From assembly GCA_016191165.1 (NCBI GenBank), contig JACPPF010000007.1:1-56083 (forward strand): 56,083 nucleotides of DNA, in the 5' to 3' direction. The DNA is from Planctomycetota bacterium. GTDB taxonomy: Bacteria; Planctomycetota; Planctomycetia; Gemmatales; Gemmataceae. Position 1 is the stretch's first letter. Each line of letters begins with the position of its first letter. This document shows positions 12,103-51,765 of the stretch, piece by piece. The notes beneath the pieces were generated by a model that was given only the letters and a program-made list of their open reading frames with translations, had not been told where the DNA came from and did no database searches. Made by a program: the position numbers and the translations under genes.

Positions 12103-12156
12103 CGCCGCTTGCGGCTTAGCGTTCGCATGGCGCCGCGCGAACGCTAAACGGCAAGC
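12103..12156. repeat. Palindromic repeat, AGCGTTCGC family, copy 1
   Basis: GCCGCTTGCGGCTTAGCG leads into an inverted pair (TTAGCGTTCGC and GCGAACGCTAA) around a GGCGCC core. It begins directly after the cytochrome stop codon and lies before the SDR gene. Related copies are at 43,366, 47,644 and 54,655. Confidence 0.75.
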
Positions 12157-16154: not shown

Positions 16155-16160
16155 TCGCGC

Positions 16161-18510: not shown

Positions 18511-18584
18511 GGTTGAAAGCTCCAGGGAATGGAGGATTCCTGGTTATCATACGGCGCGCGGCGACATTTGACTTGCCCGCATTT

Positions 18585-18651
18585 GTTTAGCCGCTCGCCT
18601 TGGGCGAGCACGGTCGCGAAGGCCGCGCTCGCCCAAGGCAAGCGGCTAAAC
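18585..18651. repeat. Palindromic repeat, GTTTAGCCGC family, copy 2
   Basis: The arms begin GTTTAGCCGCTCGCCTTGGG and end with the complementary CGGCTAAAC, with one mismatch over 25 bp. It lies between divergent guaB and hom, ending 12 bp before the hom start, so it would be in the hom leader transcript. Confidence 0.85.
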
Positions 18652-18663
18652 GTGGTTTTCCCT

Positions 18664-20034
18664 ATGATTGAATTCATGGAACCCCTCGGTATCGCCTTGA
18701 TCGGTTACGGCACGGTCGGCAGCGGCGTGGCAAGGTTGTTGCTGGATCATCCGGAGCGTCTGGCCGCCCGCGCCGGGCGCCGGCTGGAGCTGCGCCATGT
18801 CGTCGTCCGCGATCTGAACAAGCCGCGCGAACCGGACGTTGCGCCAGCGCTGCTCACCAGCGATCTGCGCCAGGTGATCGATGATCCAGGCGTACACGTC
18901 GCAGTCGAAGTCGTCGGCGGCATCGACTGGGCCAGGCGAGCCGTGCTCGATCTGCTCGCCGCGGGCAAGCACGTCGTCACCGCGAACAAGGCCCTGCTCG
19001 CCACCCACGGCGCGGAAATCTTTGACGCCGGGCGAAAGCATGGCCGCGCCATCGCGTTCGAGGCGTCGGTCGGCGGCGGCATCCCGATCATCAACGCCCT
19101 GTGCCAGGGCCTGGCGGCCAACCAGATCCTGTCGCTTCAGGGCATTCTCAACGGGACGTGCAACTTCATCCTCACCGGGATGATCGAGCTGGGCCGAAGC
19201 TACCGCGACGTACTGGCCGAGGCGCAGTCGAAGGGCTACGCCGAGGCCGACCCGACCATGGACGTGGACGGGACCGACTCGGCCCACAAGCTTGCCATCC
19301 TCGTGCAGATCGCCTTTGGCATTGCGTTACCGCTTTCCGCCATTCAGCGCCGTGGCATCGCCGACATCGATCAACTCGACATCCGCTTCGCCCGCGAACT
19401 GGGCTACACGATCAAACTGCTGGCGGAGGCGTGGCTGTTGCAGGAGAATCCCCCCCTCACCCCCAGCCCATCTCCCAGAGGGAGCGGGGAGGAAATGCAA
19501 CTGGCCCTCCACGTGTCGCCGGTGATGCTCAGGCAAAGCGCGCCGCTGGCGCTGGTGCGCGACGCGTACAATGCGCTCTTCGTCGTTGGAGATGCCGTTG
19601 GCAACACGCTGTACTATGGTCGCGGCGCCGGGCAGATGCCGACCGCCAGCGCCGTGGTCGCCGATCTGATCGACATGGCCGTCGGGCGGGCGCAGCAGAC
19701 GTTTCAAAGCTTGCGGCTCTGGTCGGGCAATCACGGTCCCGTTGTGCTACGCGATCCCAGTACGATGCGGAGCCGATTTTACCTGCGCATGATGGTCGAG
19801 GACCGCCCCGGCGTCATGGCGGACATCACCCGCATCCTGGCGAATCACCGGATCAGCATCTCGTCGGTCATCCAGCACGAGGCGCTTGACCACGGCGACG
19901 AGGAGATCGAGATCGTGCCGCTCATCATCATGACGCACACCGTGACGACGGGCAGTTTCAACGACGCCCTGGCGGAGATCGACGCCCTCAAGAGCGTTCG
20001 CCCACCCAGTGTCTACTACCCCGTGGGCGATTAA
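18664..20034 (+). CDS. hom: Homoserine dehydrogenase with C-terminal ACT domain and in-frame repeat insertion
   Basis: 456 residues from ATG 18,664 (ATG 18,676 is equally possible). It reduces aspartate semialdehyde to homoserine for Thr and Met synthesis. The NAD(P) loop is IALIGYGTVGSGVA (10-23), TANKALLA at 107-114, and the catalytic region is ILNGTCNFILTGM (161-173) with Lys in GTDSAHKLAIL (203-213). An ACT domain occupies about 375-450 (YLRMMVEDRPGVMADITRIL). Residues 262-277 (PPLTPSPSPRGSGEEM region) are Pro/Gly/Ser-rich, absent from normal family members, and encoded by a palindromic repeat that is also found in trpA and the ThuA-like gene. The insertion lies between the catalytic and C-terminal parts and is probably tolerated as a surface loop. 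Confidence 0.95.
   Translation: MIEFMEPLGIALIGYGTVGSGVARLLLDHPERLAARAGRRLELRHVVVRDLNKPREPDVAPALLTSDLRQVIDDPGVHVAVEVVGGIDWARRAVLDLLAAGKHVVTANKALLATHGAEIFDAGRKHGRAIAFEASVGGGIPIINALCQGLAANQILSLQGILNGTCNFILTGMIELGRSYRDVLAEAQSKGYAEADPTMDVDGTDSAHKLAILVQIAFGIALPLSAIQRRGIADIDQLDIRFARELGYTIKLLAEAWLLQENPPLTPSPSPRGSGEEMQLALHVSPVMLRQSAPLALVRDAYNALFVVGDAVGNTLYYGRGAGQMPTASAVVADLIDMAVGRAQQTFQSLRLWSGNHGPVVLRDPSTMRSRFYLRMMVEDRPGVMADITRILANHRISISSVIQHEALDHGDEEIEIVPLIIMTHTVTTGSFNDALAEIDALKSVRPPSVYYPVGD
19451..19492. repeat. Protein-coding palindromic repeat (CCCTCTCCC/GGGAGAGGG family), copy in hom
   Basis: CCCATCTCCCAGAGGGAGCGGGG is the core, with CCCCTCACCCCC before it. It stays in frame and adds about 15 codons to hom. 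The same consensus is at 30,645 (trpA) and 41,272 (ThuA-like gene). Confidence 0.8.
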
Positions 20035-25901: not shown

Positions 25902-26510
25902 GTGGTCCTTGCTCATCATCTCATTTTCACGGCTTACGGTTTCTGGCTGCCGAACGATCCGCGCGGCTCATGGTCTGATTTTGTCGGCTCGTGGGATTTG
26001 CTGCGCTATGGCAAAGCCACCAAGACGACGACGCGCCGCTCCGTCGCCGGGGTTCCCCACGACCGGGAACTTCGTGAACAGGCCAAGAGGGCCTTGAAAA
26101 ACCCTCCGGTGCAATTCTCGGACGCCCAGATTCAAGCGGTTGGCCAGGGCATTGCCGAATCGGCTCGTAAGGGCGACCTCAAGATATGGGCGTGTGCCGT
26201 AATGTCCGATCACATTCACCTCGTGGTGGCGCGACATCGATGCCTGGCTGAACAGATCATCAATCTCACGAAGGGAGCGATAACCAGAAAATTGCTGGAC
26301 CTGGAATTGCACCCATTTCAAACGCTCGCTGGCAATCATACCCGCGTGCCCACATGCTGGGCGGCCAAGGGATGGAAGGTATTTCTCGATCGGATCGAGG
26401 ATATCCAGCGGGCGATCGCGTATGTTAACAACAATCCAATCAAGGAAGACCTACCGGCCCAGTTGTGGGATTTTGTCACGCCGTTTGACCCGAATATTGA
26501 AGGCGTTTAG
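25902..26510 (+). CDS. REP-associated tyrosine transposase (RAYT, Y1/IS200-like)
   Basis: 202 residues from GTG 25,902, which follows the AAGGGGG stretch. An out-of-frame ATG at 25,897 gives no protein. The N-terminal block [19 protein letters not shown] is the hallmark of this transposase branch. The two-His metal site is in [13 protein letters not shown] (about 105-117), and [23 protein letters not shown] (about 168-190) is the C-terminal block with the catalytic Tyr in AYVNNNP. It cuts and joins single-stranded hairpin DNA. Its last two codons and stop (GGC GTT TAG) come from the downstream palindrome. The gene looks intact. Confidence 0.9.
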
Positions 26511-30383: not shown

Positions 30384-31208
30384 ATGAACCCCATCGACTC
30401 CCTCTTCACCCGCCTGAAAACCGAACGCAAGAAGGCGTTCATCCCCTTCATCACGGCCGGCGATCCCGACCTGGAGACGACTGCAAGGTTGGTGCGCGAA
30501 TGCGCCCTTCGTGGCGCGTCGCTGATCGAGATCGGGTTTCCCTACAGCGATCCGATTGCCGATGGCAGCGTCATCCAGGCGTCGTATACGCGGGCGCTTG
30601 GCAAGGGATTGAGCGTGGATGCGATCTTCAGTGCCGTGCGAGCGCTCACCCTCACCCCCGGCCCCTCTCCCGGGGGGAGAGGGGAGGCGGTGCCTTTGGT
30701 GGCAATGGTCTCCTACAGCCTCGTTCACCATCGTGGGCCGGAGAGGTTTGTTATTGATGCGAAGGCGAACGGGTTCGCCGGCGCCATCGTGCCTGATCTG
30801 CCCGTCGATGAAGCCGAAACGCTGGCGAAAATCGCGGCAGCGCATGACTTCAAGCTCATCTTGCTCGTGACGCCCACGACGCCGCGCGAACGCGCCACGC
30901 GGATCGCCCGGCTTTCGACGGGGTTCTTGTATTGCGTCAGTGTTGTCGGCATCACCGGGGAGCGTTCCCAACTGCCGCCCGATTTGCTCGAACAATTGAG
31001 CTGGCTGCGAACCCAAACCGAACTCCCCCTGTGCGTCGGCTTCGGCATCTCGACGCCGGAGCATGTGCGGATGCTGCGTGATTCGGCTGACGGCGTCATC
31101 GTCGGCAGCGCCCTGGTGCGCAAGCTGGAAGCCGCGAAGCCTGTCAGCGAAGTCGTGACCGACGTTGGCGACCTGGTTCAGCAACTTGTTGGGGCCTTGC
31201 ACGGTTGA
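30384..31208 (+). CDS. trpA: Tryptophan synthase alpha chain with in-frame repeat insertion
   Basis: 274 residues from ATG 30,384. It cleaves indole-3-glycerol phosphate to indole for the beta chain. The catalytic Glu49 is in ASLIEIGFPYSDPIADG (45-61) and Asp60 follows at the family's exact position. YCVSVVGITGERS is the flexible loop, and VGFGIST and GVIVGSALV bind phosphate. Residues about 88-103 (TLTPGPSPGGRGEAV) replace the short turn before the strand PLVAMVSYS and are encoded by a palindromic repeat. This surface turn is remote from Glu49 and Asp60 in sequence, so activity is likely retained. The start has a weak ribosome binding site (GAAGACAAG). Confidence 0.95.
   Translation: MNPIDSLFTRLKTERKKAFIPFITAGDPDLETTARLVRECALRGASLIEIGFPYSDPIADGSVIQASYTRALGKGLSVDAIFSAVRALTLTPGPSPGGRGEAVPLVAMVSYSLVHHRGPERFVIDAKANGFAGAIVPDLPVDEAETLAKIAAAHDFKLILLVTPTTPRERATRIARLSTGFLYCVSVVGITGERSQLPPDLLEQLSWLRTQTELPLCVGFGISTPEHVRMLRDSADGVIVGSALVRKLEAAKPVSEVVTDVGDLVQQLVGALHG
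30645..30688. repeat. Protein-coding palindromic repeat, copy in trpA
   Basis: CTCACCCTCACCCCCGG runs into CCCCTCTCCCGGGGGGAGA and GGGGAGG. The CCCCTCTCC arm pairs with GGAGAGGGG. It is 44 bases long or slightly less and keeps the trpA frame. Confidence 0.85.
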
Positions 31209-34217: not shown

Positions 34218-34352
34218 CCTCATTACCGTTCGTCAAGCAGAGGAATACCAGCATCACGCGCAAGCGTGGGGGGTTTGCACGCGTCCCAAAACCCCCACGC
34301 TTGCGCGTGGGGCTGGTCAAGTGCTCTTGCACGAACGGCATTGCGCCAAAAC
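34212..34352. mobile_element. 140-bp MITE-like element, copy A
   Basis: The ends are imperfect inverted repeats (GTTTAGCCTCATTACCGTTC and the complement of GTTTTGGCGCAATGCCG). Inside are complementary blocks ACGCGCAAGCGTGGGG and CCCCCACGCTTGCGCGTGG. It starts within the stop codon of the LEDR protein and ends exactly at the stop of the convergent DUF6065-like gene. Copies B and C are at 45,384 and 49,696. Confidence 0.8.
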
Positions 34353-41048: not shown

Positions 41049-42080
41049 TTATTTGATCCCCAGCTCCCCCGGCCGCACTCCTTTCTTGGCGCCGTTGAAC
41101 CCGAACGGGCTGGGCCGATAGTCGCCTACCACGTCCACTTGCAGCTTCGGCGTGATGCCTTTCTCCATTCCCATCGCCCAGAATGAGGCGTTGACCAACA
41201 TGCGGCGTGTTCCCGCGGCGACGAGGTCGTCGGCGCTACCCATCGTCGTGGTGAAGATGCGCTGGCCGCCACCCTCACCCCCGACCCCTCTCCCGGAGGG
41301 AGAGGGGAGAATTCTGGTCCAGGCGACCGGCATCATCGGATCGTTTTTCTTGCCCTTGAGGGGCGGGTCGTCGAACTTCATGCCGGCGACGACCTGGCCG
41401 TAGACCAGGATGGTGGACGGCTTGAGCGGGTTGGCGCCGTAAACGTCGGTCGGGCCCCAGATGTCGCCGTCCTTCAGGCCGGCTAGAATCGGGTGCTTCG
41501 CTTGTTCCTTGTTGAGAATGCCGCGCGTGCTTTGCGAGCCGTGGCCGCCGTGGTGGCTGATCCATTGTTCGCCGAGGATTTGTTTGCCGAAACCGCCCTT
41601 GAATTCCTTGCCGCCGAAGCCGTTGTTGTACTTGGCGAATTTCCCCTTCATGCCATTGAAGGCGTGGGTCGCGGTGCGCATGCCGAGGATCGGTTTGGCG
41701 GTGCCGAGGTAATCGACGATGTGTTGCATCTGCGCTTCGGGCAGATTGCGAAAGCGTGTGGCGATGATCATCAGGTCGGCTGTCTTGAGCATCTCCAGAC
41801 CTGGAATGTTATTGTTCACGTTCGGATTGATCACGCCGGTCTTCGGATCGATCGCGAACAGCACGGTGCACTTGAAGCCATGATGTTTTGCCAGGATCTT
41901 GCCAAGTTGGGGCAGCGCTTCCTCGGAGCGGTATTCCTCGTCGCCAGAGACGAGGACGATGTGCTTGCCCTTGCCAGGACCGTCGAAGCCGTCGTAAACG
42001 ATCCACCGGGCGTCGTCCTGAGCCCGGACGACCGAGGCGGTGATGGCAATGGCGACGAAAGTGAAGACAAAGCGATTCAT
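41049..42080 (-). CDS. Exported ThuA-like domain protein with in-frame repeat insertion
   Basis: 343 residues with a signal peptide (MNRFVFTFVAIAITASVVRA). The ThuA-like (class I glutamine amidotransferase-fold) pattern is visible: HIVLVSGDEEYRSEEALP (40-57), LKTADLMIIATRFRNLP (98-114), KPILGMRTATHAF (129-141), HPILAGLKDGDIWG and VNASFWAMGM near the end. The ThuA fold is linked to trehalose or other sugar use, though exported planctomycete versions are uncharacterised. Residues 258-272 (LPSPSGRGVGGEGGG) are an insertion encoded by the palindrome found in hom and trpA, here in the opposite orientation. Confidence 0.88.
   Translation of the reverse strand: MNRFVFTFVAIAITASVVRAQDDARWIVYDGFDGPGKGKHIVLVSGDEEYRSEEALPQLGKILAKHHGFKCTVLFAIDPKTGVINPNVNNNIPGLEMLKTADLMIIATRFRNLPEAQMQHIVDYLGTAKPILGMRTATHAFNGMKGKFAKYNNGFGGKEFKGGFGKQILGEQWISHHGGHGSQSTRGILNKEQAKHPILAGLKDGDIWGPTDVYGANPLKPSTILVYGQVVAGMKFDDPPLKGKKNDPMMPVAWTRILPSPSGRGVGGEGGGQRIFTTTMGSADDLVAAGTRRMLVNASFWAMGMEKGITPKLQVDVVGDYRPSPFGFNGAKKGVRPGELGIK
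41272..41310. repeat. Protein-coding palindromic repeat, copy in the ThuA-like gene (inverted)
   Basis: On the plus strand CCCTCACCCCCGACCCCTC leads to TCCCGGAGGGAGAGGGG. It is the closest match to the trpA copy but read on the other strand by its host gene; the frame is kept. Confidence 0.85.
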
Positions 42081-45383: not shown

Positions 45384-45497
45384 AAACGCAATACCGTTCG
45401 TCGAAGAGCACGTGACCAACCCCCCAGCGAAAGCTGGGGCTTTGGGAGGCTGCCCACACCCCCACGCTTGCGCGTGGGGCTGGTATCGCTTTGCCGA
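45384..45497. mobile_element. 140-bp MITE-like element, copy B (one end lost)
   Basis: ATACCGTTCGTCGAAGAGC starts the intact end; the centre has CCCCACGCTTGCGCGTGGGG and CTGGTATCGCTTTGCCGAGT, complementary to the left part of copy C, so it lies inverted relative to C. The other outer end is truncated or degenerate. It occupies most of the 294-bp gap 45,262-45,555, which has no gene. Confidence 0.7.
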
Positions 45498-49695: not shown

Positions 49696-49835
49696 GTTTA
49701 GCCGCGATACCGTTCGTAAAGCGGAGCGATACCAGCCCCACGCGCAAGCGTGGGGATTCGGGCAGCCTCCCAAAACCCCTAGCTTGTGCTGGGGGCTGGT
49801 CAGGTAACCTTCGACGAACGGTATCGCGGCTAAAC
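49696..49835. mobile_element. 140-bp MITE-like element, copy C (intact)
   Basis: Perfect 22-bp inverted ends (outermost GTTTAGCCGCGATACCG...) enclose two hairpins, ACCAGCCCCACGCGC...GCGTGGGG and CCCCTAGCTTGTGCTGGGGG, the latter ending GGCTGGT. It has no coding capacity. It lies in the 359-bp gap between divergent genes; the remainder (49,836-50,016) shows no gene. Confidence 0.88.
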
Positions 49836-51516: not shown

Positions 51517-51542
51517 CGCGATGCCCTCATGCCATTGCGACT

Positions 51543-51765
51543 ACCAGCCCCCGGCGCTAGCCGGGGGGTGAAGCGACCTTGCTAACACCAGCCCCCGGCG
51601 CTAGCCGGGGGGTGAAGCGACCTTGTTAACACCAGCCCCCGGCGCTAGCCGGGGGGTGAAGCGACCTTGTTAACACCGGGGGGTGAAGCGACCTTGTTAA
51701 CACCAGCCCCCGGCGCTAGCCGGGGGGTGAAGCGGCCCTTACCCCCCGGCTAGCGCCGGGGGGCT
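51543..51765. repeat. 44-bp tandem repeat array ending in an inverted half unit
   Basis: Units start at 51,543, 51,587 and 51,631 (each 44 bp, ACCAGCCCCCGGCGCTAGCC then GGGGGGTGAAGCGACCTTG(C/T)TAAC). A fourth at 51,675 has lost 17 bp, and a fifth begins at 51,702. The array closes with CCCCCCGGCTAGCGCCGGGG, the reverse complement of the unit core, so the last copies can fold into a long hairpin. The only difference between units 1 and 2/3 is C/T near the end, indicating recent duplication. Confidence 0.92.

Follow-up and report, generated by a model that had tools for sequence, protein, structure and literature searches.

We found that the trpA gene of this planctomycete contains an in-frame palindromic element of 40 nt, which we assign by its sequence to the PIT/TM "intrastrand triplex" repeats and which behaves like a Rickettsia palindromic element (RPE). 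Very probably, it is one copy of a non-autonomous, dispersed palindrome of the PIT/TM class, which spreads through the genome, sometimes lands in genes, and is filtered there by selection. The analyzed stretch of DNA (termed the window, 56,083 nt) is contig 19 of a 7.23-Mb genome assembled in 183 contigs, and it harbors three copies of the element, listed below with their host genes.

18583..20034, + strand: hom, homoserine dehydrogenase, matching PF00742 (Homoserine_dh) with an E value of 5.8e-59
19452..19491, + strand: second copy, in frame in hom (PPLTPSPSPRGSGEE), with two mismatches to the core; the extra residues are missing or different in relatives
30384..31208, + strand: trpA, tryptophan synthase alpha chain, matching PF00290 (Trp_syntA) over residues 8 to 260 with an E value of 4.6e-73
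30647..30686, + strand: PIT/TM-type palindromic element in trpA (CACCCTCACCCCCGGCCCCTCTCCCGGGGGGAGAGGGGAG), 40 nt, in frame, adding LTPGPSPGGRGE
41049..42080, - strand: ThuA-like gene with the third copy, an ORF with a weak match to PF06283 (30.4 bits, under the cut-off of 33.4)
41270..41309, + strand: third copy, reading LPSPSGRGVGGEG, inverted relative to its ThuA-like host gene

The original prediction had announced a copy in hom and an inverted one in the ThuA-like gene, and both were located, the ThuA identity itself being weak. In Hom, the domain match (residues 168 to 363) runs over the insert at residues ∼290 to 305. In the relatives G002 and G006 (loci L291 and L271), the same Hom loop contains, respectively, a TM-like hairpin, apparently in the opposite orientation, and another palindrome (GCTTGCGGCTTAGC...).

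The trpA product has 274 aa, its frame is open throughout, palindrome included, and the gene is the sole strong match in the genome, the remaining matches being weak. Residues 88 to 103 read LTLTPGPSPGGRGEAV. When the TrpA sequences of 30 loci were aligned, the segment was seen only in the congener G006, as LTLTPNPSPGGRGEQ, and G002, at a similar distance, has RALNGIGVPL at the position of the insert. Among the six same-genus genomes, G006 has the TrpA insert and G001 to G005 are devoid of it, as are the distant orthologues. Since the segment is missing from all same-genus orthologues except one, it is an insertion and not an ancestral feature, in agreement with the original prediction, and no homologous Pro/Gly segment extends throughout the family. 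The closest named relatives by TrpA are metagenome-assembled genomes (MAGs) of Gemmataceae, with Baikal-deep-G160 at the top. The trpA element is 92% identical between this genome (G000) and G006 and its flanks are 80% identical, a difference that is not significant (P 0.06), and the two copies may stem from shared descent or from parallel insertion, both of which fit.

We then looked into the position of the insert in an AlphaFold model of TrpA, built on 32 sequences. The mean pLDDT is 91.0, with residues 91 to 100 at only 59, and the insert is located between a helix (residues 78 to 90) and a strand (residues 105 to 108). Two other weak blocks, residues 51 to 60 and 181 to 200, hold loops after strands, as is the case for the mobile loops involved in TrpA catalysis. 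E49 is invariant and D60 nearly invariant in our alignment, and these are the catalytic residues of the TrpA family. In the model, the loop with the insert has low confidence and lies on the helix-to-strand side of the barrel, at a distance from the catalytic residues. In the trpA gene of G038, which belongs to another family, a different palindrome, GGAGAGCGTAAGCTCTCC, is found in frame in the same loop (L072), and G038 contains 7 copies of it.

The core of the palindrome is CCCTCTCCC-N3-GGGAGAGG. The palindrome itself was confirmed, but its extent had been drawn too small, since the CCCTCACCCC arm on one side is also conserved. The conserved unit covers ∼40 nt and is composed of the CCCTCACCCC arm, a short variable stretch, and then the CCCTCTCCC...GGGAGAGGGG hairpin; about two more bases are conserved on each side, the flanks being otherwise unconserved. 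The window yielded six core matches at ≤3 mismatches (three copies, each counted on both strands) versus 0.21 expected from shuffled sequences. Genome-wide, the exact hairpin was found ∼109 times and the oriented pattern 121 times, with no match to the reversed control in either search, which amounts to a total of ∼110 to 120 copies. The copy number among relatives is patchy, from 0 to 500, and in a distant relative (G046, contig C1, 1738670-1739044 and 1885230-1885891) TM copies follow one another in same-strand series, ∼170 to 270 nt apart. The consensus can be read through in five of its six frames, the sixth containing a TGA; the peptide encoded in the open frames (12 to 15 residues) is rich in Pro, Gly, Ser, and Arg and is probably disordered. 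The trpA copy did not fold clearly better than dinucleotide shuffles (z of -1.69 as DNA and -0.97 as RNA), and given these values we make no claim that a structured RNA or DNA hairpin is the selected feature. A search of the window against Rfam gave no match.

The assignment to PIT/TM relies on the same three blocks and on the high copy number (PMC4666352, PMC2869309). Repeats of this class are on record from cyanobacteria as well as from Enterobacter and E. coli. Holder et al. 2015 (PMC4666352) described the PIT/TM intrastrand-triplex repeat and reported its E. coli copies to be intergenic in all cases, and Enterobacter sp. 638 contains the CCCTCTCCCXX(X)GGGAGAGGG repeat, a palindrome present in 100 copies (PMC2869309). 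The 509 kb that we fetched contain 76 copies with the three blocks, CCCTCNCCC - loop - GGGNGAGGG - loop - GGGNGAGGG, and a second loop of 3 to 6 nt. As in E. coli, inverted pairs join two loop types (CCG-like and TT-like). Unlike in the known PIT/TM repeats, where the second loop has 3 nt, it usually has 5 nt here (GCCGG or GTTGG), and the exact 3-nt loop of the E. coli consensus occurs in only 1 of those 76 copies; the 5-nt loop can also be read as one extra base per arm around a 3-nt loop. Our literature search, which was thin on subscription journals, brought up no description of a PIT/TM element located in frame within a gene. In this respect, the element resembles the Rickettsia palindromic elements, which are likewise found in frame in many unrelated, apparently functional proteins (PMC3733652), and differs from them in belonging to another bacterial phylum and a probably free-living host and in having a short unit with the PIT/TM consensus. 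The comparison with RPEs drawn in the original prediction holds for behavior only, the sequence class, PIT/TM, having been left unnamed.

We evaluated the genetic context of the copies in a census covering the window and 76 stretches that surround the 100 copies listed first. The gene caller used codon usage trained on the fetched stretches and was applied to the 150 nt on either side of a copy; the copies were taken in order of contig number and had to match the core exactly, which leads to an under-count of degraded copies. Among 114 non-overlapping copies, 43 were in frame, with coding sequence on both sides and one open frame, in contrast to the copies of E. coli, reportedly always intergenic. 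The others had the same strand coding in different frames (2 copies), opposite strands coding (3 copies), one side coding (48 copies), or no coding sequence (18 copies). The classifier can detect frameshifts, since it called every simulated insertion of 37 or 38 nt frame-shifted. The phase that would supply the TGA was used by none of the 24 inverted copies (P 6e-5 under equal phases). When close copies were merged into sites, 43 of 91 TM sites were in frame and 5 were scored as shifted, every one of them a pair. The suggestion that the palindrome behaves like a protein-coding repeat is borne out by dozens of in-frame copies in unrelated genes across the genome.

Hosts identified by Pfam include GatB, GatA, AspS, TyrS, PurH, SelA, KdpA, PdxA, a KDO transferase, a menaquinone biosynthesis protein, a class-III aminotransferase, an M32 peptidase, two acyl-CoA dehydrogenases, and several planctomycete DUF1501 and PSD1/PSCyt2 proteins, among others. 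Several of these enzymes are usually essential. The Pfam domain match crosses the insert in GatB, GatA, TyrS, PurH, KdpA, SelA, and others. For sixteen further hosts (GatA, GatB, AspS, TyrS, PurH, and Hom among them), we searched the joined flanks in eight genomes and aligned the fetched orthologues: for each of the sixteen, one or more relatives had an empty site, and the net size differences were multiples of three. GatA, GatB, AspS, TyrS, and PurH have one match each in this genome, which argues that the functional copies are those with the insert, given an assembly that is 95% complete; from these sequences, we infer that the decorated enzymes work. The inserts, of about 10 to 15 residues, sit in what look like tolerant loops.

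We propose that a short palindrome, made of the hairpin and the CCCTCACCCC third arm, would spread over the genome as DNA and now and then enter genes. Selection would act as a filter on frame and stop, removing insertions that break the frame and those that supply the TGA (one of six frames), and the five remaining frames would give a peptide rich in Pro, Gly, Ser, and Arg that is tolerated where the loop of the host is already variable.

Filtering alone predicts a depletion of copies from coding DNA, and the absence of such a depletion in our classification exceeds this prediction: 43/91 sites were in frame, and 46.9% of random positions were coding on both sides in one frame. This observation, together with the reuse of loops described below, could reflect a preference for certain sites, a faster loss of intergenic copies, or the limits of the classifier. 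One possible, if doubtful, explanation is that certain loop sites preferentially receive or keep the element, which then serves as a recurrent donor of disordered loops, copies in coding sequence being favored. With the same scoring, 47% of TM sites were in frame in genes versus 10% (7/73) for four other palindrome families, but the samples are small, most of the other families have more stop frames or longer units, which could alone cut their in-frame share, and intergenic copies may be subject to faster decay or deletion. For Hom, MqnA, and PdxA, insertions in the same loop recur in different relatives, in differing phase or apparent orientation (PdxA in G002 and MqnA in G006 each have their own TM copy in another phase), which suggests site preference; however, the peptide differs by frame, so that no one peptide is selected. 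The GatA insert is shared with G002 only and the TrpA insert with G006 only, and since the three genomes G000, G002, and G006 stand at about the same distance from one another, gain and loss are inseparable from parallel insertion and from each other. The broader proposition, that PIT/TM repeats of Gemmataceae are preferentially inserted or kept in a few protein loops and repeatedly give housekeeping enzymes new disordered loops, is in our view unlikely.

Returning to the dispersed palindrome, we looked into how its copies might move. Mobilization by a RAYT, as a REP or REPIN, is also improbable, slightly more so than the use of preferred loop sites, and some of our data point in that direction. 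Close pairs are mostly in one arrangement, as in REPINs, with 18/24 inverted and their third arms facing and none in the opposite inverted arrangement. Furthermore, the numbers of Y1 transposase genes and of TM copies correlate moderately (rho 0.45 over 59 genomes), although this may mirror the general load of mobile elements; G033 contains 33 copies and no Y1 match and G047 contains 11 Y1 matches and no copies. In G026 (500 copies), a spacer of constant length, 31 nt, separates the two copies of most fetched pairs, which mostly join a CGG-type and an AA-type copy; the TM dimers are embedded there in a longer unit whose inverted ends are GGCGAGCGGC/GCCGCTCGCC (L331 to L348), a composite element that, judging from these sequences, looks recently multiplied. 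Against mobilization via flanking copies, none of the 29 best Y1 loci of the relatives had the hairpin nearby, and in this genome at most 2 of 11 did (L039 and L040), several hundred bases to one side, several of the Y1 loci of this genome being flanked by other palindromes; we rejected this candidate. Di Nocera et al. 2013 (PMC3733652) reported intragenic GTAG and CGTC REPs, for example in Opitutus terrae, from the same PVC superphylum. Our element is like them a small palindrome found in ORFs, tRNA synthetase genes included, and often as a dimer, and differs in having no associated RAYT gene and no GTAG or CGTC tag at the foot of the stem, where the unit ends in CCCTCACCCC and GAGAGGGGAG. 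We looked for both the tag and the RAYT association and found neither, and for this reason we did not file the element under REPs. No target-site duplication was recognizable, since the same-genus relatives available for comparison are too diverged (only ∼70 to 90% identical in protein).

The two remaining explanations carry little weight. The fragmentation of the assembly and the fact that the relatives are mostly MAGs might raise the suspicion of an assembly artefact or chimera, which is highly improbable, as the trpA insertion junctions are identical in G000 and in the independently assembled G006, frames are preserved in nearly all cases, and a sequencing read exceeds the element in length. 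Least credible of all is the reading of the segment as an ancestral Pro/Gly loop of TrpA or as the product of drift in a variable loop: the loop does vary in length across the family, and G038, G040, and G041, from the same order, have their own long insertions in it, but the DNA is a near-exact copy of the genome-wide repeat and the orthologues are devoid of the segment, so that copy number and alignment together refute it.

So far, palindromic insertions in frame have been linked chiefly to Rickettsia and its reduced genomes. In this 7-Mb planctomycete, repeats of a class known as intergenic are found in frame in dozens of genes, usually essential enzymes included. The relatives with empty sites constitute natural pairs, with and without the insert, in which its cost to the enzyme can be measured, and the data offer a system for finding what copies PIT/TM repeats.

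The window also contains other repeats. A Y1-transposase-like (RAYT) ORF at 25902-26510 is flanked by GTTTAGCCGCTCGCC...GGCGAGCG palindromes (25860, 26504, and 26537), which look like the REPs of this ORF itself. At least three further families of dispersed palindromes are present, the first at 34247-34317, 45436-45490, and 49725-49779, the second at 12103, 43369, 47648, and 54654, and the third at 16160, 18584, 24919, and 48711. Finally, a tandem array with a 44-nt unit (CCAGCCCCCGGCGCTAGCCGGGGGGTGAAGCGACC...) in about five copies is located at 51517-51737.
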